Of a stretch of DNA of 40,682 nucleotides, positions 32,970 through 40,682 are shown piece by piece. Below the pieces are notes generated by a model. That model was not told the origin of the DNA. It ran no database searches and saw only the letters and a program-made list of their open reading frames with translations. A program made the position numbers and the translations under genes. The stretch spans positions 1 through 40,682 of the forward strand of contig NZ_BPKW01000014.1 in the NCBI RefSeq assembly GCF_019656015.1. The letters run 5' to 3'. Every line of letters begins with the position of its first letter. Position 1 is the stretch's first letter. Origin of the DNA: Leuconostoc inhae (GTDB lineage Bacteria; Bacillota; Bacilli; Lactobacillales; Lactobacillaceae).

Positions 32970-33097
32970 AACGCTCACCTCTCGCTATTTTATTGATAGT
33001 TTCTCTATCTCATTGAAACTATTACACAACTCGTTTATACTATGACTATGTGAATAATATTACTATATTGTTTGAATTTTTTAAATAACGCACTTTT

Positions 33098-33415
33098 ATG
33101 TGCCTTATACCTTGGGGGGTGTTTGCTATTATTTCTGACCAATCAAAAAAGACCATTAAGCTCTTTGCTGCTAAGTGGTCCATTGACATACTTGTTTCAA
33201 TTAATGATTTTAAAGTGACTGGCTTCAATCAATTAAATCAGAGTTTACCAAGCCTATCCCACAAAGTTCTAACAGAACGGCTACAAGATATGGTAAAAGA
33301 CAGCATGATCAGTCGTACTGTTGTTGAACGTATTCCTTTGCGCGTGATTTATAAACTTTCTCCAAAAGGGCAAGCTATTTTAGAATTATGTACCAAATTA
33401 AACGATTTTGATTAG
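33098..33415 (+). CDS. HxlR-family transcriptional regulator
   Basis: A 105-residue winged-helix regulator: LFAAKWSIDILVSI, LPSLSHKVLTERLQDMVKDSMI, then the wing RTVVERIPLRVIYKLSPKG, all typical of HxlR (redox/aldehyde or quinone sensors). It diverges from the HerA operon and probably controls it; DNA between them is only about 130 bp. The start is uncertain: ATG at 33098 has no RBS, while a GGGGGG precedes an ATT at 33128. Confidence 0.8.
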   Translation: MCLIPWGVFAIISDQSKKTIKLFAAKWSIDILVSINDFKVTGFNQLNQSLPSLSHKVLTERLQDMVKDSMISRTVVERIPLRVIYKLSPKGQAILELCTKLNDFD

Positions 33416-33426
33416 TATACGACAAC

Positions 33427-33678
33427 TTAATGACCAACAAAGAATCGCATTGGTATACTGACGTCAGAGTTTGCAAGTTGACGCCATAATATCAAGCCAT
33501 TTTCAGATAAATGTTGTTTAATTAATAACGCCCTAAAACTACGCGCCACGTCACGCTGCACTTTGCTTGCCGCAACGTTATCTCTGATATGTCCACATGC
33601 CTGATCAACTATTTGTTGTTCGGACATATTACCGTTTTTAAATGCCGTTAATACTGCCAATAACTGTGTTTTGTTCAT
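33427..33678 (-). CDS. Bacteriocin-immunity-like helical protein (83 aa)
   Basis: Small soluble all-helical protein (MNKTQLLAVLTAFKNGNMSE...) of the size and pattern of EntA-type immunity proteins, which sit under the membrane and block the bacteriocin/mannose-PTS complex. AAGGGG precedes the ATG. It lies at the edge of the island with further immunity-type genes, and a structured leader with terminator precedes it. Confidence 0.5.
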   Translation of the reverse strand: MNKTQLLAVLTAFKNGNMSEQQIVDQACGHIRDNVAASKVQRDVARSFRALLIKQHLSENGLILWRQLANSDVSIPMRFFVGH

Positions 33679-33714
33679 GATTTCCCCTTATTATTATGAT
33701 TGTAAATTAAAAAA

Positions 33715-33829
33715 ACCTATATCTGCCCATCTCAAATGCAACTTTTAAATGGCATTATCAAATTTCAAGTATAGGTACCCCTAGTGAGAACTTCGTTTCA
33801 ATTTTTATCAGCCTCTAACACACATTATA
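33715..33829 (-). promoter_or_regulatory. Structured leader with terminator before the 83-aa immunity-type gene
   Basis: Minus strand: extended -10 TGCTATAAT (33824-33832), then a leader of about 100 nt containing CACTAGGGGTACC and a long hairpin ACCTATA...TATAGGT (33715-33776) with inner pairing TGCCAT/ATGGGCA, followed by T7. The gene starts 37 bases beyond. This is the layout of an attenuator or riboswitch. The CUAGGGGU and GAUAAUGCC strings recall parts of the TPP element, but the CUGAGA core is missing. Confidence 0.4.
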
Positions 33830-33940
33830 GCAAAAGGAAATAACGGATTTTACACAAGTTTTTTGATTTTTAGGTCAAAATATATTATTGACTTTTTTAA
33901 AAAATATGTTAGATGGGTGCTACCAATTATTGCGTTATCA

Positions 33941-34234
33941 TTAATAGCCATACCTTATTTGACTCAGTTCAGTTAATTTCTTCATCGTTTGTTGCGCGTC
34001 TGCTGGTAACACGATATGATTTTTTAGCATTGCACTTGATAGTTCAAGATTCATTCTGCTGAGTATCACTGGTATCGATCCTGATTCTGTTTTGATTTCA
34101 TTAAAATACTCTGATAAAACATGTTGCAACTCACTATACTTCACATCATCTAGTTGCTGACGTAATTGTATGAGCAGCGCTAGCGCAGATTTTCCTCTCT
34201 CTTGACCACCTGTAAACCATTTTATAGCTGACAT
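33941..34234 (-). CDS. Bacteriocin immunity protein, EntA_Immun type
   Basis: A 97-residue protein with the family layout: N-terminal WFTGGQERGKSAL, central helices and C-terminal LSQIRYGY. It overlaps the preceding membrane-peptide gene by one base (stop/start), so it is coupled. Members protect against pediocin-like class IIa bacteriocins; no class IIa bacteriocin gene is present in this window. Confidence 0.72.
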   Translation of the reverse strand: MSAIKWFTGGQERGKSALALLIQLRQQLDDVKYSELQHVLSEYFNEIKTESGSIPVILSRMNLELSSAMLKNHIVLPADAQQTMKKLTELSQIRYGY

Positions 34235-34521
34235 TATGATTCTCGCCTTTTAGTGTTATCTATTTGATCATAATTTCTTTTGAACTCTGCGTTCGACTTT
34301 GACAAAAATTCTTTTCCATGTCGCGTTTTTGTCAAATAGAGATAGTATAAATAATAACTAACTGTCGCAAGAACTAATGACAACAGAAATGACCAAACAA
34401 ACTTCATTGACCAAATATTGAATTTGAACACCTCTGGTACTATTGTGATGATAAACATCATCAACGCTATATTTAATGCACGGTATTTTGGTAAATAACG
34501 GTTTTTCTTGTATTTTTTCAT
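34234..34521 (-). CDS. Small two-helix membrane protein (95 aa)
   Basis: Two predicted membrane helices (ALNIALMMFIITIVPEVF and FVWSFLLSLVLATVSYYLYY) flanked by Lys/Arg-rich ends. Couples to the EntA-type immunity gene. Family not recognised; likely part of the immunity set. Confidence 0.65.
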   Translation of the reverse strand: MKKYKKNRYLPKYRALNIALMMFIITIVPEVFKFNIWSMKFVWSFLLSLVLATVSYYLYYLYLTKTRHGKEFLSKSNAEFKRNYDQIDNTKRRES

Positions 34522-34587
34522 ATCATTACGCTAACTAATTACAATCCTTGGTTGTTCGTCTCTGGATGTGATAATAACACATGTTAA

Positions 34588-34809
34588 TTATTTGAGGTTT
34601 GAAGGTACTTCTCCCTTGACGAGTATCATACTAACAACAATTGCAAAAATAGCTACCTTATCAAACTCAGCAATCAAAAAATCATGAGATATCATGTTCA
34701 TTCCTAATTGAATTATCCCAATGACAGTAAAGACCTGTACGAAAGATTTTATAAATAGCGCTTGGTTACTAGGTATTCTTTCCCAACTACTTTTTAATAA
34801 CTTATTCAT
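34588..34809 (-). CDS. Small two-helix membrane protein (73 aa)
   Basis: Two predicted helices (FVQVFTVIGIIQLGMNMI and VAIFAIVVSMILVKG). First gene of a minus-strand unit (73 aa, 95 aa, 97 aa) driven by the promoter at 34910-34937 next to the TGCCATAATGGCA palindrome. The short N- and C-termini and paired helices resemble immunity or toxin-neutralising membrane proteins. Unknown function. Confidence 0.6.
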   Translation of the reverse strand: MNKLLKSSWERIPSNQALFIKSFVQVFTVIGIIQLGMNMISHDFLIAEFDKVAIFAIVVSMILVKGEVPSNLK

Positions 34810-34909
34810 TTTCTATCCCCTTTTTAATATTACTATCTGTATAAATTATATCACTCTTATACTCATCTTGCTAGAAACATTTTTTCATGAAAAATTCATC
34901 CATATTTTA

Positions 34910-34981
34910 ATTATACTTTGCCAGTTTGTAAATAAATGTGCCATAATGGCATTTGCTTGTTATAAAAATCACGACTATAAT
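34910..34981. promoter_or_regulatory. Divergent promoters sharing palindrome TGCCATAATGGCA
   Basis: Palindrome TGCCATAATGGCA at 34939-34951. Plus: TTGCTT (34953-34958), 17 bp, TATAAT (34976-34981) towards 35014. Minus: ATTTAT (34932-34937), 16 bp, TATAAT (34910-34915) towards 34809. The palindrome abuts both weak -35 boxes, as expected for an activator. The same arrangement occurs at 38830-38902. Confidence 0.7.
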
Positions 34982-35013
34982 ACAGTTATTAATTAAAATT
35001 GGGGAACTGAACA

Positions 35014-35316
35014 GTGGCTAAAAACGATAAAGAAATTGACATATTAAATGACATCATTAACTTGCTAATACAGGTAGACTTAACAACAGATGAACGATCC
35101 ATCTTACAGTTTGCTAAAAAGCAATTAGAAAAGCACGTTTATTTTCCAAAGATTATTAGCGGCTTAGAACTATCACTAACACCTTTAGCGATGCAACAAC
35201 AATTATCTAAAAGCCTATCACCATTTTATTTAAAAATAACAAGTCAGGAATTTAAAAATAAATATCAGGGCTTTGGTACTGGCTTAGGTATGAGTTTTGG
35301 CGGCGGCAATTTTTAA
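35014..35316 (+). CDS. Bacteriocin-immunity-like protein (100 aa)
   Basis: Starts with GTG (GGGGAAC 7 bases upstream). A mainly helical 100-residue protein (NDIINLLIQVDLTTDERSIL..., ending GLGMSFGGGNF) resembling the EntA-type immunity group in size, charge and context. Followed 28 bases later by a membrane peptide gene in the same unit. Confidence 0.5.
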   Translation: MAKNDKEIDILNDIINLLIQVDLTTDERSILQFAKKQLEKHVYFPKIISGLELSLTPLAMQQQLSKSLSPFYLKITSQEFKNKYQGFGTGLGMSFGGGNF

Positions 35317-35344
35317 AATTTTGTGATATAGAAAGGTATTGATC

Positions 35345-35575
35345 ATGGATACAGTAACGAAGCATAGTCTTTTCTCAGGTATTGTTTTTGGCATATTATT
35401 AATCATATCCAACTTCGTGATTGATCCCGTAAAAAATACACGTATTATTCCTATGGCGATTTTTATATTATTTGCCAGTTTAGTCATGGGATTGTATGTG
35501 TATTGGTATGGTAAAAAGACTAAAATTGGCCAAAAGCATTACAATAATCTAGCAAGAAAAAAAGCTAACAAATAA
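35345..35575 (+). CDS. Small two-helix membrane protein (76 aa)
   Basis: ATG at 35345 after GAAAGG (an upstream TTG at 35339 is in frame). Two helices (SGIVFGILLIISNFVI and IIPMAIFILFASLVMGLYVYW) and a very basic C-terminus. Second gene of the plus-strand immunity unit, ending at a terminator. Confidence 0.65.
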   Translation: MDTVTKHSLFSGIVFGILLIISNFVIDPVKNTRIIPMAIFILFASLVMGLYVYWYGKKTKIGQKHYNNLARKKANK

Positions 35576-35591
35576 TAAATTAAGCTTAATG

Positions 35592-35624
35592 AACCCATCA
35601 TCAATGTGAACTCGATGATGGGTT
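35592..35624. terminator. Intrinsic terminator
   Basis: AACCCATCATC pairs with GATGATGGGTT, then TTTT on the plus strand. Ends the plus-strand immunity unit. Confidence 0.9.
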
Positions 35625-35692
35625 TTTATATTGTCTGTATTAATTACATGTCATGTGACCGCAGTAATTCTTGATGGTTTAATTTTAATCAT

Positions 35693-35968
35693 TCACAAAC
35701 TAATGTTATCTCTTCTACCATATCCCAAGTATAATCTTAATAATTCAGATTGGATGGGAACTAATCTTGCGGATAGACTTCCCTGCGTTAAAAACTGTTC
35801 TGAAAGTTTATATTTAAGGTTCTCAGCGACTTTGATATCATCAATACCATCTTTCATGCTTTGATTAGCATGCGCTAAAATTTCGCGCTCTTGCCTAGAC
35901 ATATCGCTGTTCGAGTCTGTGGCAACTTCATTAACCATCTGCCAAAATTTTATTTTTTTGTTGTTCAT
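35693..35968 (-). CDS. Bacteriocin-immunity-like protein (91 aa)
   Basis: Start ATG at 35968 (GAGGGC 7 bases upstream). Helical, EntA-immunity-like size and pattern (WQMVNEVATDSNSDMSRQER..., C-terminal LLRLYLGYG). It is placed one base after the stop of the 50-aa membrane peptide, so the two are coupled. A 19-bp direct repeat spans its start. Confidence 0.5.
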   Translation of the reverse strand: MNNKKIKFWQMVNEVATDSNSDMSRQEREILAHANQSMKDGIDDIKVAENLKYKLSEQFLTQGSLSARLVPIQSELLRLYLGYGRRDNISL

Positions 35969-35969
35969 G

Positions 35970-36122
35970 TTAAATGCCCTCATTTTTTTGTTGTTCATGT
36001 AATAATCCACTGACTAATACATATATTGATACTGTCAAAACCAAACATAAGCCCCAATTACTCCACCCCAAAATAAGACCAGCTATAATAGAAAAAAAGA
36101 ACACAAATAATTTTGTTTTCAT
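35970..36122 (-). CDS. Small membrane peptide (50 aa)
   Basis: ATG at 36122 with strong GAGGGG upstream; 50 residues with two helices (FVFFFSIIAGLILGW and LCLVLTVSIYVLVSGLL) and the tail HEQQKNEGI. It sits between the XRE-membrane regulator and the immunity-like gene in one tight operon. Too short for routine gene callers. Confidence 0.7.
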   Translation of the reverse strand: MKTKLFVFFFSIIAGLILGWSNWGLCLVLTVSIYVLVSGLLHEQQKNEGI

Positions 36123-36159
36123 AAAAACTCACCCCTCAATAATATATTTTTCTCAGTTA

Positions 36160-36648
36160 TCAAAATGGCACGAAAATCCCATAAATACCTGCTAGTAATG
36201 GCACAATAATTGCGAATATTACGAGTTGGTAATTATTAAACGGCTTTTTGTCCTCAATCAATCGCAATTGATTACTAAAGTATACTAACGCCACAGCATT
36301 AGTTAACATGGCCACAAATACCACAATAGACACCCACATAGTAACATGACCTATAATAACAAACATAATCAATGATGTCGTTGCCGTCAATAATCTAAGC
36401 AATACAATATTTTGCTTTTTAGCTTTATCCTTAATATTATTGATCATTTTTTTATCCTCCAAAAGTAATTGATCTAAAGATATGTTTAGCTTCTTTGCAA
36501 TCAAGACAACATTATCGATGTCTGGCAATGTTCGACCACTTTCCCAATTCGATATTGTTTTGCTAGAAACCATTAATAATTCAGAAAAATCGACTTGTGT
36601 CATCTTCCTTTCTTTACGTTGTGATTTAATTAACTCTGAAAAATTCAT
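36160..36648 (-). CDS. XRE-family HTH regulator with membrane domain
   Basis: A 162-residue protein: N-terminal HTH (MTQVDFSELLMVSSKTISNWE, residues 15-35) followed by three predicted membrane helices. The start at 36648 has GGAG 8 bases upstream. Promoter TTTACA (36686-36691), 17 bp, TATTAT (36663-36668). Such membrane-tied XRE proteins sense envelope signals; it is a candidate regulator of the bacteriocin/immunity units, including the palindrome TGCCAWWWTGGCA. Confidence 0.8.
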   Translation of the reverse strand: MNFSELIKSQRKERKMTQVDFSELLMVSSKTISNWESGRTLPDIDNVVLIAKKLNISLDQLLLEDKKMINNIKDKAKKQNIVLLRLLTATTSLIMFVIIGHVTMWVSIVVFVAMLTNAVALVYFSNQLRLIEDKKPFNNYQLVIFAIIVPLLAGIYGIFVPF

Positions 36649-36803
36649 ATCTCTTACTCCAAATAATAGATTGATCTTGCTACTCTGTAAAGGAAATAGG
36701 GTTCTAATTAACAAGAAATCAACTAGAAACACCTGTCTAATCCTCGTTATTAGTTCTTTATTATCAACCACCCTAACTTAAAATATCAAATCATTTATTT
36801 CGA

Positions 36804-37097
36804 CTAACACCACGGATACTTACCGTCTTTTTGAACATGCGCAATAAATGGATATGGCAAATCTTTCTGATCAAATATAGAAAGATCTGCCCGAACAGGC
36901 GTGGTATCAAAGTCAAGTGCTTGTGCTGCCCTGACAATCCCTAATGCTGTGGTACCCTCCATGTCTGTCTTGGCTATTTCTCGTAAATGTGCCAGGGATA
37001 CTCGTGTCTTGTAATGCGCAGCAATCATTGCCAACGCTGCAACACCACAATCACGTTCATCGACTTGAGGAATGTAATTAATCTTTTTGATAAACAT
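36804..37097 (-). pseudogene. C39 peptidase fragment of a bacteriocin ABC exporter
   Basis: 97 residues of the N-terminal C39 cysteine peptidase domain that removes double-glycine leaders. Catalytic Cys in VDERDCGVAAL and His in PFIAHVQKDGK are present; the reading frame ends PWC-stop where KDGKYxHYxV and the Asp, then the six helices and ATPase, should follow. Strong GGAGG precedes the ATG. The exporter is thus cut after about one seventh of its length. Confidence 0.85.
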
Positions 37098-37100
37098 TTA

Positions 37101-37257
37101 TCATCCTCCACAATACAGTGTATCAAATTGCAACCCCTGATTTTTCACATATTCATCGTATCTTTTGCTGAAATATGTTAGTGACATTTATTAGTTTTTG
37201 TGGTAATAAGACGTAGTCTGGTTGACAAGAACAATACCAATAGATAAATTCATCCAT
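37101..37257 (-). pseudogene. Frameshifted small ORF before the C39 fragment
   Basis: One frame reads MDEFIYWYCSCQPDYVLLPQ... to FQQKIR-stop; shifting one base at an A-run gives RYDEYVKNQGLQFDTLYCGG-stop, ending just before the C39 start. The two halves together look like a coding sequence of about 52 residues with several Cys. Identity unknown; a bacteriocin accessory protein is possible but unsupported. Confidence 0.3.
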
Positions 37258-37278
37258 TTCTAAAAATAATATTTCAGT

Positions 37279-37335
37279 AAAAAATGCAATGATTACTCAC
37301 CTGTGGCATACGGGTAAGTAATCATTGCATTTTTT
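37279..37335 (-). terminator. Terminator of the bacteriocin operon
   Basis: AAAAAATGCAATGATTACT pairs over 19 bp with 37317-37335, with T-runs on both strands. It lies 39 bases past the 68-aa gene. Confidence 0.95.
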
Positions 37336-37374
37336 AGTTAAACCGTTAAATCTGTTTTATCTAACTTTCGAAAT

Positions 37375-37581
37375 TCATTTCAGTTGAGATTTTTTTATAA
37401 TGCGATCAATCATTAAAGGTGTTATAGGTACCGCTGCAAGAGAAACGATACCTATATAGGGTATTGACGAAATTAGACGTAAACTTGACAGCACATAGCA
37501 GATAAAAATAATGATATCTACAATAATGACCATTCTAATTAACCGAAGACTTGTTCTTGACATATTTTTTTTATTAGGCAT
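37375..37581 (-). CDS. Small two-helix membrane protein (68 aa)
   Basis: ATG at 37581 with AAAAAGGA upstream; an extension to 37677 overlaps the SpoIIM gene stop. Two helices (IRMVIIVDIIIFICYVLSSL and IVSLAAVPITPLMI), basic termini. Last gene of the bacteriocin operon; probably immunity or accessory. Confidence 0.6.
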   Translation of the reverse strand: MPNKKNMSRTSLRLIRMVIIVDIIIFICYVLSSLRLISSIPYIGIVSLAAVPITPLMIDRIIKKSQLK

Positions 37582-37673
37582 CGTACCACATCCTTTTTTA
37601 ATATTATTGAAACACGCTATCGCATATTCGGCATGATGTATTTTATTAATTAATTTAATACTATCACAAAAAT

Positions 37674-38306
37674 TCACATAAACACATTCATAATTATAGG
37701 TGTAATGAACGATTCAATTATTGCAGCTATAATTAGTAATGGTAACGTATATACAACAAAGGATTTCAGCAAAGTATACAACAACGATCCAATGAATTTA
37801 TAATTCAAATGTTGTCGCTTCCATATGCGCTTTAAAATGTTAATAGATATATCATTAGTTTTTTTGGCTAAGATCAATACTATAATATATGAAGTTATTT
37901 CCAGAATACCATGTGGCAATATACCTGTAATAGCTAACTTTAACCCTACAACTAAGCCCTTATCATACACTACATACCCAACAACTTGACCCATTGTTGA
38001 AATCGTTCCGATTGCCGGTAAAGCGTACAGGTAGGGAACTGGGATTATCGCAAACAAAATAATCGAACCGGTCGATATAACATTCATAATTATAATATTC
38101 AAAAAGTCTATGCTACTATAATTTGTGACAACTTTAGCGTTCAAGTATTCTTTTATGCCATTTATCTCGCTAGGGTTAGATTTAATCTTAAAATACACAT
38201 ATACAGATAGCAAAACAACATATATCATTATATATAGCAATAGTAATAACATTGTTTTTGTATACTTATTTTTAATGACTTGCCATTTAGCTAATTGATT
38301 TCGCAT
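37674..38306 (-). CDS. SpoIIM/DUF95-family membrane protein
   Basis: A 210-residue protein with about five helices, including the family core IIAIIPVPYLYALPAIG-like segment, then GLKLAITGILPHGILEI (the PHG-E pattern typical of SpoIIM/DUF95). It follows both bacteriocin peptides by about 60 bases. DUF95 proteins occur in circular-bacteriocin loci, where they help in secretion or immunity; in a two-peptide locus this is unusual. Confidence 0.8.
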   Translation of the reverse strand: MRNQLAKWQVIKNKYTKTMLLLLLYIMIYVVLLSVYVYFKIKSNPSEINGIKEYLNAKVVTNYSSIDFLNIIIMNVISTGSIILFAIIPVPYLYALPAIGTISTMGQVVGYVVYDKGLVVGLKLAITGILPHGILEITSYIIVLILAKKTNDISINILKRIWKRQHLNYKFIGSLLYTLLKSFVVYTLPLLIIAAIIESFITPIIMNVFM

Positions 38307-38365
38307 TTTAAAAAAGTATATCCTTTTCTGTATTCATATCAGATAATTTTTATAATCAAACTATT

Positions 38366-38548
38366 TTATGCCAAATATTTCCCGTACTTAATTATTTTGT
38401 AAGTCAATCCACCCAATTTAACTATCTTCCCTACTTTTTTCCCAGCATCATATGCCCCTTGATTAAATCCGCCAGTCACATATTGCAGGTCCGAATCGGT
38501 AATCTTTTGATACTTATCTAGTTGTTCAAACTTATTATGATTTTTCAT
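38366..38548 (-). CDS. PlnE-like class IIb bacteriocin precursor
   Basis: A 60-residue prepeptide. Leader of 27 residues ends DSDLQYVTGG (double-glycine site); mature peptide of 33 residues starts FNQGAYDAGKKVGKIVKLGG. This resembles plantaricin E (FNRGGYNFGKSV start) and keeps a GxxxG helix-pairing motif (GKKVG). AGGA precedes the ATG. It pairs with the upstream PlnF-like gene. Confidence 0.85.
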   Translation of the reverse strand: MKNHNKFEQLDKYQKITDSDLQYVTGGFNQGAYDAGKKVGKIVKLGGLTYKIIKYGKYLA

Positions 38549-38586
38549 TTTTTCCTATATCCTTTTTTCATTTTTTACGCAGTTAC

Positions 38587-38748
38587 TTATCCATGAATCA
38601 CGCCACGAATAAAGCTAACAACAGCATCTGCATCTCGTTCCGTGCCTTTATTCATGTAAAAAGCACCTCTGGAAACCATTTTATAGCCACCGCTAATTCC
38701 TGATAACTGCTCTTCGCTCAACGTTTTAAAACTTGTTTGATTCAGCAT
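38587..38748 (-). CDS. PlnF-like class IIb bacteriocin precursor
   Basis: A 53-residue prepeptide from the ATG at 38748 (AGAGGA 7 bases upstream; ATGs further up lack an RBS). Leader of 21 residues ends SEEQLSGISGG; the mature 32-residue peptide starts YKMVSRGAF and ends DAVVSFIRGVIHG, strikingly like the plantaricin F C-terminus (VISAVRGFIHG). First gene of the operon, 38 bases before the PlnE-like gene. Two-peptide bacteriocins act together to depolarise target membranes. Confidence 0.87.
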   Translation of the reverse strand: MLNQTSFKTLSEEQLSGISGGYKMVSRGAFYMNKGTERDADAVVSFIRGVIHG

Positions 38749-38829
38749 AACTATTCCTCTTTTCTTATACATCAACTAATCACAATTAGTTTTTTATACT
38801 AACATCAACATATGGTCAGTACACTCTTC

Positions 38830-38902
38830 ATCATACAACAGCAACGTCAATTTCACATTGCCAAAATGGCACTTTTTGAAACCAGCTAACTTATGCTACA
38901 CT
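38830..38902. promoter_or_regulatory. Divergent promoters sharing palindrome TGCCAAAATGGCA
   Basis: Palindrome TGCCAAAATGGCA at 38859-38871. Minus: TGTGAA (38852-38857), 16 bp, TATGAT (38830-38835), towards the bacteriocin operon. Plus: TTTTGA (38874-38879), 17 bp, TACACT (38897-38902), towards the CPBP gene. The -35 boxes are weak, in line with activation. Matches the 34910-34981 element in sequence and spacing. Confidence 0.7.
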
Positions 38903-38908
38903 AACACT

Positions 38909-39688
38909 ATGACATCTAGAAAAAATTTACTGATACAAATTTTGTTAGTATGGCTTGGTAGCCTCTTATTCACAATTGGTTTTGAGAACTTACTTGCCTA
39001 TTCGACACAGTTATCACAATATACGATCGTGGTTCTGAATTCTTTATTAAGTATAGGTATCTTATACTTAGTTAATCACAAATACAAATTAACCAAAATA
39101 TTCATAAAACCAGCACATGATACTTGGTTAGATAAATCAGTTTATATCATACCAATCCTTCTGTACGCTTTACGCTTATTACTATTTTTTGTTGATGAAC
39201 CTGGCAAATTGAGTCTGATCGTGAATCACATGCCACACTATCTCATGATTTTACTGGTTATTGTCACCAGTGTTTTTTTCGAAGAGTATATCGATCGTGG
39301 CCTTATTTTTGGCGCATTACTGGTTTATTTTAAAAATCATAAGTGGCGTGTACCACTCAGCATCTTATTATCTGCTTTTATGTTCTCATTGTCTCATTTG
39401 ATGAACTTATTGCATCAAAATGCGATACAAACACTCGGCCAGCTAATTTATACTTTTGGTTTTGGCTGTTTAGTCAGTATGCTGTATATTCGATCACGAA
39501 GCCTACTAATCCCATTTGCAACCCATTTATTATTCAACTTACCGTCATTTTTAGATGATTCAGCATTTAGTGCAACGCATGCGGTTACACTCACATCCCT
39601 AATAGGACCAATCATCTTACTAATTATTTTCCTAACTTACACCTTTGTTTTTATCAATAAAGATGAAACAAAGCATTATCAATTTTAG
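38909..39688 (+). CDS. CPBP-family intramembrane protease, candidate bacteriocin immunity
   Basis: A 259-residue membrane protein (about seven helices) with the CPBP motifs EEYIDRG, FSLSHLMN and THLLFN. PlnI-type Abi/CPBP proteins give immunity to plantaricin EF, and this gene diverges from the PlnEF-like operon under a shared palindrome. No RBS precedes the ATG; the -10 TACACT ends 6 bases upstream, so the mRNA is probably leaderless. The 17 codons upstream are in frame but unsupported. Confidence 0.85.
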   Translation: MTSRKNLLIQILLVWLGSLLFTIGFENLLAYSTQLSQYTIVVLNSLLSIGILYLVNHKYKLTKIFIKPAHDTWLDKSVYIIPILLYALRLLLFFVDEPGKLSLIVNHMPHYLMILLVIVTSVFFEEYIDRGLIFGALLVYFKNHKWRVPLSILLSAFMFSLSHLMNLLHQNAIQTLGQLIYTFGFGCLVSMLYIRSRSLLIPFATHLLFNLPSFLDDSAFSATHAVTLTSLIGPIILLIIFLTYTFVFINKDETKHYQF

Positions 39689-39750
39689 GGCTTATGTGAC
39701 ACCTACGCGCACATTTATGGCTGTTAATGTAACAATTTTTAAATGACTAT

Positions 39751-40428
39751 TTATGTCAACAAGACTAATAAATTATGCAGACTATGAAACATGATTGTAT
39801 ACTGCAATTTTTTAGTCACAACTCTAACAATCATCAAAACCCCACCAGCCGTTAAATAAGTTGCCCACTGTGCTAATGTCGATGGTGAATGCACTAACGC
39901 AAATACCACTGTTGGCCACAAAATTTGCATCGCCCTCCCAAGTGACTTAGCTTCTTCAAACATAATACCACGAAAATATATTTCTTCAATAATCGGCGCA
40001 ATAACAACAATATTAAAATTAAATAACAGCAGTGGCCACCAACTTGTTAAATGATTTAATATCTTATCAATAGCTTGTTGATTACTGCCAGTCAACTGAT
40101 TACTTCCAAATAATGCAGGTAACCCATAAGTTATAAATAACCAACTTATAATAAATATAGCGATGGTTATACCCACTTTTCTGCTATTCAGACGCTCAAA
40201 AACAACATCTGATCGCTGAGATAAATAGCGATACCCAAAATAGGCAATTACCCCACTTACGATAACATTCGCCAATAAAGCTACACCAGCATATTGATTT
40301 AAATCACCCATAAAAAGAAAAAAATCTGGTATGACTAAAATAACGAAAATTAATATGGTAACTAAGATAAGTTCAAATAATTCCCTAGCTTTTTTGATAA
40401 TAGGCAATACAATATTTTTTATTGGCAT
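39751..40428 (-). CDS. CPBP-family intramembrane protease
   Basis: A 225-residue membrane protein, about six helices, with EEIYFRG, FALVHSP and HSLHNL motifs. It is a second member beside the first, convergent with it, and reads towards the bacteriocin operon from upstream. GTGGAA precedes the ATG. It could be a second immunity or leader-processing protease. Confidence 0.85.
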   Translation of the reverse strand: MPIKNIVLPIIKKARELFELILVTILIFVILVIPDFFLFMGDLNQYAGVALLANVIVSGVIAYFGYRYLSQRSDVVFERLNSRKVGITIAIFIISWLFITYGLPALFGSNQLTGSNQQAIDKILNHLTSWWPLLLFNFNIVVIAPIIEEIYFRGIMFEEAKSLGRAMQILWPTVVFALVHSPSTLAQWATYLTAGGVLMIVRVVTKKLQYTIMFHSLHNLLVLLT

Positions 40429-40485
40429 AATTCCACTTTCTATTTATTCGTATATTGGATACTCGTTTATTTTGTCACACCAAAA

Positions 40486-40530
40486 GGTCAGTGATAGACA
40501 CTAATTTCTAACTCGTGTCTATCACTGATC
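40486..40530. terminator. Intrinsic terminator
   Basis: GGTCAGTGATAGACAC pairs with GTGTCTATCACTGATC, flanked by A4 and T4 on both strands. It ends the minus-strand gene remnant at 40557 and precedes the CPBP promoter. Confidence 0.9.
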
Positions 40531-40556
40531 TTTTGTTGACATGCAATTAATATCTT

Positions 40557-40607
40557 TTATTTAACAGTCCCAAAGTATGCACGATGCTTTATTCTAAGTC
40601 TAGCCGC
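40557..40607 (-). pseudogene. C-terminal remnant of a gene cut by the right IS copy
   Basis: Sixteen codons, AARLRIKHRAYFGTVK-stop, run from the IS boundary to a stop 27 bases before a terminator. The frame is also open through the adjoining IS end as far as an in-frame Met. The layout fits the 3' end of a minus-strand gene interrupted by the IS. Identity unknown. Confidence 0.5.
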
Positions 40608-40682
40608 TGGATCTACGTCAATAAATCGGACACGCATTCTACTTTGATTTGCTATTTTTGTTCAAAGGCCACTGGGGTTAAA
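40608..40682 (-). mobile_element. Right end of an IS3-family insertion sequence (right copy, runs off window)
   Basis: Exact inverted copy of bases 3-77, ending at 40608. Its OrfB C-terminal codons (LTPVAFEQK) read on the minus strand from the window edge. The element extends to the right, outside the window. Confidence 0.75.

Follow-up and report, generated by a model that had tools for sequence, protein, structure and literature searches.

Two palindromes between divergent bacteriocin and immunity promoters of Leuconostoc inhae, a candidate activator site of an XRE-type regulator

The described systems closest to the element reported here are the streptococcal promoters activated by ComR, ScuR and SarF, which are XRE-domain receptors of the RRNPP type, and the pln promoters of Lactiplantibacillus plantarum regulated by PlnC and PlnD. 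According to PMC6703854 and PMC5131891, the distance to the -10 box matters at the streptococcal promoters, among which are bacteriocin promoters, and PMC2714321 describes PlnC and PlnD as response regulators that use tandem repeats of TACGTTAAT. The DNA analysed here, referred to as the window, is the 40,682-nt contig NZ_BPKW01000014.1 of Leuconostoc inhae, numbered C14 in the 1.96-Mb genome that is labelled G000 here. It carries two copies of a 13-bp palindrome, termed site A, each placed between divergent promoters of bacteriocin or immunity genes. Site A resembles the ComR/ScuR/SarF promoters in its short dyad, spacer and -10 box, and the pln promoters in that one site family stands before both bacteriocin and immunity promoters. 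Unlike at the streptococcal promoters, the half-site is TGCCA and not GACA, and the site is common to divergent promoters; the sites read TGCCA/TGGCA instead of the GACA/TGTC inverted repeat given for ComR and Rgg in PMC5131891. Nor does the window resemble a PlnC/PlnD target, as TACGTTAAT with at most one mismatch occurs 18 times in it against 19.4 expected, and not once between 31679 and 40613. A third likeness is to the CPBP (Abi) immunity genes of plantaricin-type loci, with a CPBP membrane protein encoded beside two double-glycine peptides. The window's CPBP gene is presumably linked to PlnI-type genes and has a putative immunity role.

Site A has the general form TGCCA-W3-TGGCA. As reported in an earlier note on this DNA, the two palindromes are found at 34939..34951 (site A1, TGCCATAATGGCA) and at 38859..38871 (site A2, TGCCAAAATGGCA), neither being assigned a strand. 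Exact TGCCAWWWTGGCA occurs twice in the window compared to a mean of 0.00 and a largest value of 0 in 100 dinucleotide-preserving shuffles, while the count with three mismatches allowed is ordinary (56 versus a shuffle mean of 49). The region 33001-40682 was scanned for perfect palindromes with 5-bp arms and a 3-bp centre (5-3-5), at least two G/C per arm and a -10 box at 22-25 nt. Five rows were obtained, four of which are A1 and A2, each read both ways. The whole G000 genome holds four copies of TGCCAWWWTGGCA, namely A1, A2, one within a chloride-channel-like gene and one over a start codon, the latter belonging to der by our own reading.

The distances of 23, 24 and 25 nt between palindrome edge and -10 box that the note had given for four boxes were recovered as well. 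At A1, a TATAAT lies at 24 nt on the plus strand towards the gene at 35014 (34976..34981) and a second TATAAT at 23 nt on the minus strand (34910..34915). At A2, a TACACT preceded by TG (an extended -10) is found at 25 nt on the plus strand (38897..38902), 6 nt from the ATG of the CPBP gene, and a TATGAT at 23 nt on the minus strand (38830..38835). A -10 box within 22-26 nt of a single edge is common, with 0.19-0.30 per side in shuffles; the chance of finding one at all four sides, taken as the product of the four per-side shuffle values, is about 0.003. Weak -35 boxes, also claimed for all four promoters, are indeed seen at the named boxes (best scores 3, 1, 3 and 3 of 6), but the A1 minus side overlaps a better promoter. 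This alternative sigma-70-like promoter, TTTACA-N17-TAAAAT (34904..34932, minus strand), scores 10/12 and lies 6 nt further out than the named -10. Since the palindrome centre is at -42 to -44 relative to the start and no good -35 is present at the named boxes, site A is probably an activator site. The CPBP transcript would start at or beside the ATG, which would make it a leaderless mRNA. The CPBP promoter of genome G008 is arranged likewise.

Next, site A was compared across 19 Leuconostoc genomes, which together hold 84 copies of the 13-mer. Among the 63 copies inspected (four from G000 and one from G004 included), six are in promoter position, all of them in this island: two in G000, two in G008, one in G005 and one in G004. 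The others lie inside open reading frames (ORFs; 50 copies), in terminator-like hairpins (three) or over a der-like start codon (three), with one unclassified. At the equivalent position in relatives, A2 is exact in G008, G005 and G004 and has one mismatch in G006, while A1 has an identical copy in G008 (L075:16770). A one-mismatch search outside ORFs of 100 aa, covering 16 stretches and five island stretches, gave a single row besides A1 and A2, namely TGCCAGCGAGGCA in G017 (L169:12603).

Close relatives of the CPBP gene are found in G008 (92%), G004 (65%), G005 (64%) and G006 (L. gelidum, 57%). In G006 the gene is broken by stop codons, A2 has its one mismatch and the -10 towards CPBP is spaced at 26 nt. 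Site, spacing and gene thus decay jointly, which counts for a regulatory function of site A. Between the window and G005, the arms of A2 are identical (10/10), compared to 20/35 in the 35-nt minus-side spacer and 16/17 in the block TGTACTGACCRTATGTT. This block, TGTACTGACCATATGTT in the window (38807..38823, minus strand, 35 nt from A2), is also present in G005 with one difference, the downstream genes being unlike. The minus side of A2 in G005 retains a -10 at 23 nt, though the next gene there encodes a 64-residue membrane protein and in the window a bacteriocin.

A group of small regulators, named leader-XREs here, offers a parallel to site A. These XRE proteins are roughly 85-100 residues long, start with a bacteriocin leader of the double-glycine (or AG/CG) type, and are found at L115:3937-4197, L115:9802-10065, L140:1474-1737, L166:1353-1613, L075:5349-5630, L211:4501-4764 and L212:4474-4734, and further in L139, L141-L146, L149, L194, L208, L213, L218 and L219. 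In L115 and on an L. mesenteroides plasmid, exporter and accessory genes precede the leader-XRE, and in several loci the leader-XRE stands directly before double-glycine peptide genes. In an alignment of 12 leader-XREs the second glycine is invariant and the first variable, and when ten members were scanned with the bacteriocin leader model, one scored above its curated cut-off. Unlike ComR, ScuR and SarF, these candidates leave no room for an RRNPP peptide-binding domain and have the double-glycine leader.

Perfect 5-3-5 palindromes with a -10 box at exactly 23 nt were found within about 85 nt downstream of the leader-XRE at 5 of 17 loci (two in G006 and one each in G014, contig C3 of G000, and G008). 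The same arrangement with one mismatch is present at two more loci (G013 and G009), and in G007 a perfect palindrome at 23 nt occurs, but upstream of the gene. As background, 20 perfect cases at exactly 23 nt were counted in 535,500 strand-bases, i.e. 0.0105 per 280-nt interval. Both sites A are perfect 5-3-5 palindromes and so share the first feature of this operator class; their -10 distances are 23, 23, 24 and 25 nt. Members alike in the letters of the recognition helix share their half-site: SLSTI[AT]KYE goes with GGACA in G000, G006, G013 and G009, and DP[VT]SITRYE with TACCA in G006 and G014. At two leader-XRE loci the palindrome is TACCA-AAG-TGGTA, which differs from site A by one base per arm. 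On a plasmid of Latilactobacillus curvatus, TGCCATAATGGCT is placed between the leader-XRE and the next genes, which encode small double-glycine peptides, and precedes the TATAAT of an extended -10. A family-wide search returned matches in 36 of 397 genomes, and 21 new loci were read. Two of the three new GG-leader loci from other genera have a one-mismatch palindrome downstream with the -10 at 23 nt; among 18 related XREs that lack the GG leader, none does.

The shared promoter geometry, the half-site one base from TACCA and the near-identical 13-mer beside the L. curvatus leader-XRE favour the explanation that an activator from the leader-XRE family, or a closely related XRE protein, uses site A, in which we place about half of our confidence. 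From these sequence features we infer binding, activation and the kind of regulator as follows. A dimeric XRE-type activator would bind site A, whose centre falls near -42 to -44, and would replace the -35 contact for the promoters on both sides. By geometry and neighbourhood, this regulator would be a member of the leader-XRE family, in which the palindromes beside several members have half-sites of their own. It would act from outside the window, as the G000 copies are on contigs C24 and C3. Its targets for activation would be the CPBP gene, the genes of the two-peptide bacteriocin and the immunity gene at 35014.

The earlier note had all four flanking units activated together. A shared operator conserved with the island supports this in part, since the minus unit of A1 has other promoters. 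Besides the alternative described above, a proximal promoter, TGATATAAT, is present there at 34845..34853 (minus strand). The gene at 34588 has relatives in G008, G005, G004 and G006 that are preceded by a similar sequence; in G005, G004 and G006 there is no palindrome at that place. Joint control is not carried over to G008 in full either, where the relative of the 35014 gene sits away from the site behind its own TTGCCA-N18-TATAAT and a -10 at 22-26 nt is missing from the minus side of A2.

Several observations weigh against a leader-XRE activator at site A. The weak point is that no particular leader-XRE is tied to the TGCCA site in this strain. None is encoded in the window or directly beside the sites; of the two G000 copies, the one on C3 is flanked by another half-site, GGACA, and no fitting palindrome was found beside the one on C24. 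In G008 a leader-XRE is located about 0.8 kb from A2. The leader-XRE of G004 is divergent and apparently truncated, and the G005 match, which was not read separately, scores alike. Conversely, G017, G013 and G009 have a leader-XRE, yet no site A was seen in promoter position (1 of 4, 1 of 2 and 2 of 2 copies inspected, respectively). Within the family itself, 8 of the 17 loci do not fit (G006c, G000-C24, G008b, G010, G011, G017, G004 and L. mesenteroides), yielding one-mismatch rows only, at other spacings or sides and chance-like, and the L. curvatus spacing is 21 and not 23 nt. With one mismatch allowed the background rises to 0.109 per interval, so the two of three new cases carry little weight by themselves. 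Of the 18 controls lacking the GG leader, 17 come from one genus, and upstream of three (L227, L232 and L234) a perfect palindrome occurs whose -10 is 23-25 nt away. Moreover, the leader-XREs are related to each other and are not independent cases, and the spacing rule was noticed after part of the data had been seen.

Alternatively, site A might be an activator site of similar geometry for some other XRE-type receptor of the cytoplasm, such as an Rgg/ComR-like protein retained in the genomes that have the site. In ComR-type promoters a dyad is likewise followed by a T-rich spacer and the -10 box (PMC6703854), the ComR box having an inner GACA/TGTC repeat (PMC5131891), and one Rgg-like protein is common to G000, G005 (86%) and G008 (76%). 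Around this Rgg gene (L165, L171 and L174), however, the lone copy of site A with at most one mismatch falls inside an ORF (L171:522). The three Rgg-type matches of G000 are on contigs C1, C2 and C11 and none is on the contig of the window, and as 17 of the 19 genomes have Rgg matches, their presence does not discriminate. This explanation is considered unlikely, although it fares best among the alternatives.

Slightly less likely is a repressor that would cover the -35 region and hold the divergent promoters off. The position of the palindrome over the -35 region would suit it, judged on sequence alone, and in NCBIfam the repressor family RstR comes out best for an XRE-membrane protein encoded in the window and for eight of the ten leader-XREs scanned, all below the cut-off. 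However, with -35 scores of 1-3 of 6 at the named boxes there is little left to repress, and the recurring 23-nt spacing at leader-XRE loci would suggest contact with RNA polymerase.

That the palindromes have no regulatory function is improbable. The 13-mer does occur within coding sequence and terminator-like hairpins, and A1 has other promoters close by, but the arms are conserved across diverged flanks, the site decays jointly with the broken gene of G006, and the site count relative to the shuffles (2 versus 0.00) and the background counts of palindromes with a -10 point the other way.

The regulator suggested in the earlier note was the XRE-membrane protein just mentioned (36160..36648, minus strand; HTH_3 1e-15). 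Its gene lies between A1 and A2 and encodes an XRE domain, and G008, which bears both sites, has a 98% copy, the single close relative in the 19 genomes. G005 and G004, which keep A2 exactly, have no close copy, the best match there reaching 36% across some 100 residues. Within about 250-300 nt of five XRE-membrane genes, none of the perfect 5-3-5 palindromes sought, with the -10 spaced at 21-25 nt, was found, and the gene in the window is located downstream of a second promoter element, site B, described below. Because two site-keeping genomes are without a close copy and none of the five genes has a matching palindrome, control of site A by this protein is the least credible of the alternatives. 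A second XRE-membrane protein is found near an Rgg-type gene on contig C11 of G000 (L163:8186-9789) and on contig C7 of G017 (L169:4546-6682).

Other candidates were dropped. One of them, an XRE protein whose C-terminal part is longer ("XRE-TetR"), is matched at E<=1e-60 in each of the 19 genomes and nothing ties it to site A; it lies near site B in several genomes, and Pfam gives the HTH alone, the TetR resemblance being our own reading. For the HxlR gene at 33098-33415, none was seen at the matching place in G008. Sigma-54, CRP/FNR, LysR and CcpA sites appeared to fit poorly.

A functional leader on the leader-XREs would mean that one small protein links peptide export to gene control. Leader-XREs could then be transcription factors disguised as bacteriocin precursors, with the C39 peptidase of the exporter binding or cutting the leader, so that exporter capacity would gate bacteriocin and immunity transcription through 5-3-5 palindromes like site A; this is put forward tentatively. 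A literature search of titles and abstracts, with most subscription journals outside its coverage, retrieved no description of site A or its regulation, no XRE regulator with a double-glycine leader, and, for site A variants with AAA, TTT, TAA or TTA centres, one unrelated paper on human genetics. For bacteriocin immunity in Leuconostoc from food, site A provides a testable operator together with a few candidate regulators.

The genes on the plus side of the two sites are an enterocin A-type immunity gene at A1 (35014..35316, plus strand; Pfam PF08951, 6.7e-10) and the CPBP (Rce1-like) membrane protein gene at A2 (38909..39688, plus strand; Pfam PF02517, 5.6e-15), a probable immunity gene. On the minus side of A1, a small membrane protein is encoded (34588..34809, minus strand), also a probable immunity gene. 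The minus side of A2 leads to two adjacent double-glycine bacteriocin precursors. Precursor 1 (38587..38748, minus strand) matches Pfam Lactococcin (5.6e-05) and scores 17.4 bits with bacteriocin_sig against a cut-off of 15.7. Precursor 2 (38366..38548, minus strand) is assigned by its sequence, with a model score not above the cut-off, and at E<=0.01 the 18 other genomes hold nothing related to it. Based on their adjacency, which is a mark of class IIb, the two putative precursors may form a two-peptide bacteriocin, a type whose activity requires both peptides; model support is present for precursor 1 alone. A plasmid search with the bacteriocin DNA gave no match, and one with the CPBP protein gave eight distant matches (24-45% identity). 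Behind the bacteriocin genes, a SpoIIM-family membrane protein is encoded at 37674-38306 (Pfam 8.4e-15). A C39 peptidase domain stands alone at 36804..37097 (minus strand; Pfam 4.3e-27) and covers the first 85 of 708 positions of TIGR01193; it is probably the remnant of a bacteriocin exporter. Such remnants, with the C39 domain only, are present in two genomes (window 36804-37097 and L075:8225-8461).

Site B spans about 90 bp. Its inverted repeat is imperfect and reads ACATATTT and AAATATGT in the majority of the 15 copies aligned; its -10 is TGRTANACT. With at most three mismatches over 39 bases, it occurs in 6 of the 19 genomes at 13 places: before the C39 remnant in the window (37114..37152, minus strand), and at L166:1988, L075:1019, 5208, 6881, 8188 and 13400, L076:4526 and 8800, L115:3520, 6227 and 12211, and L176:10705. 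In the neighbourhoods read, site B precedes exporter genes or remnants, a leader-XRE, SpoIIM, CPBP or small unknown genes. It is a promoter element, conserved and present in several copies, that belongs to the bacteriocin island of the six Leuconostoc genomes. In L. gelidum, a full-length ABC gene lies behind a copy of site B (L115:6265-8418).

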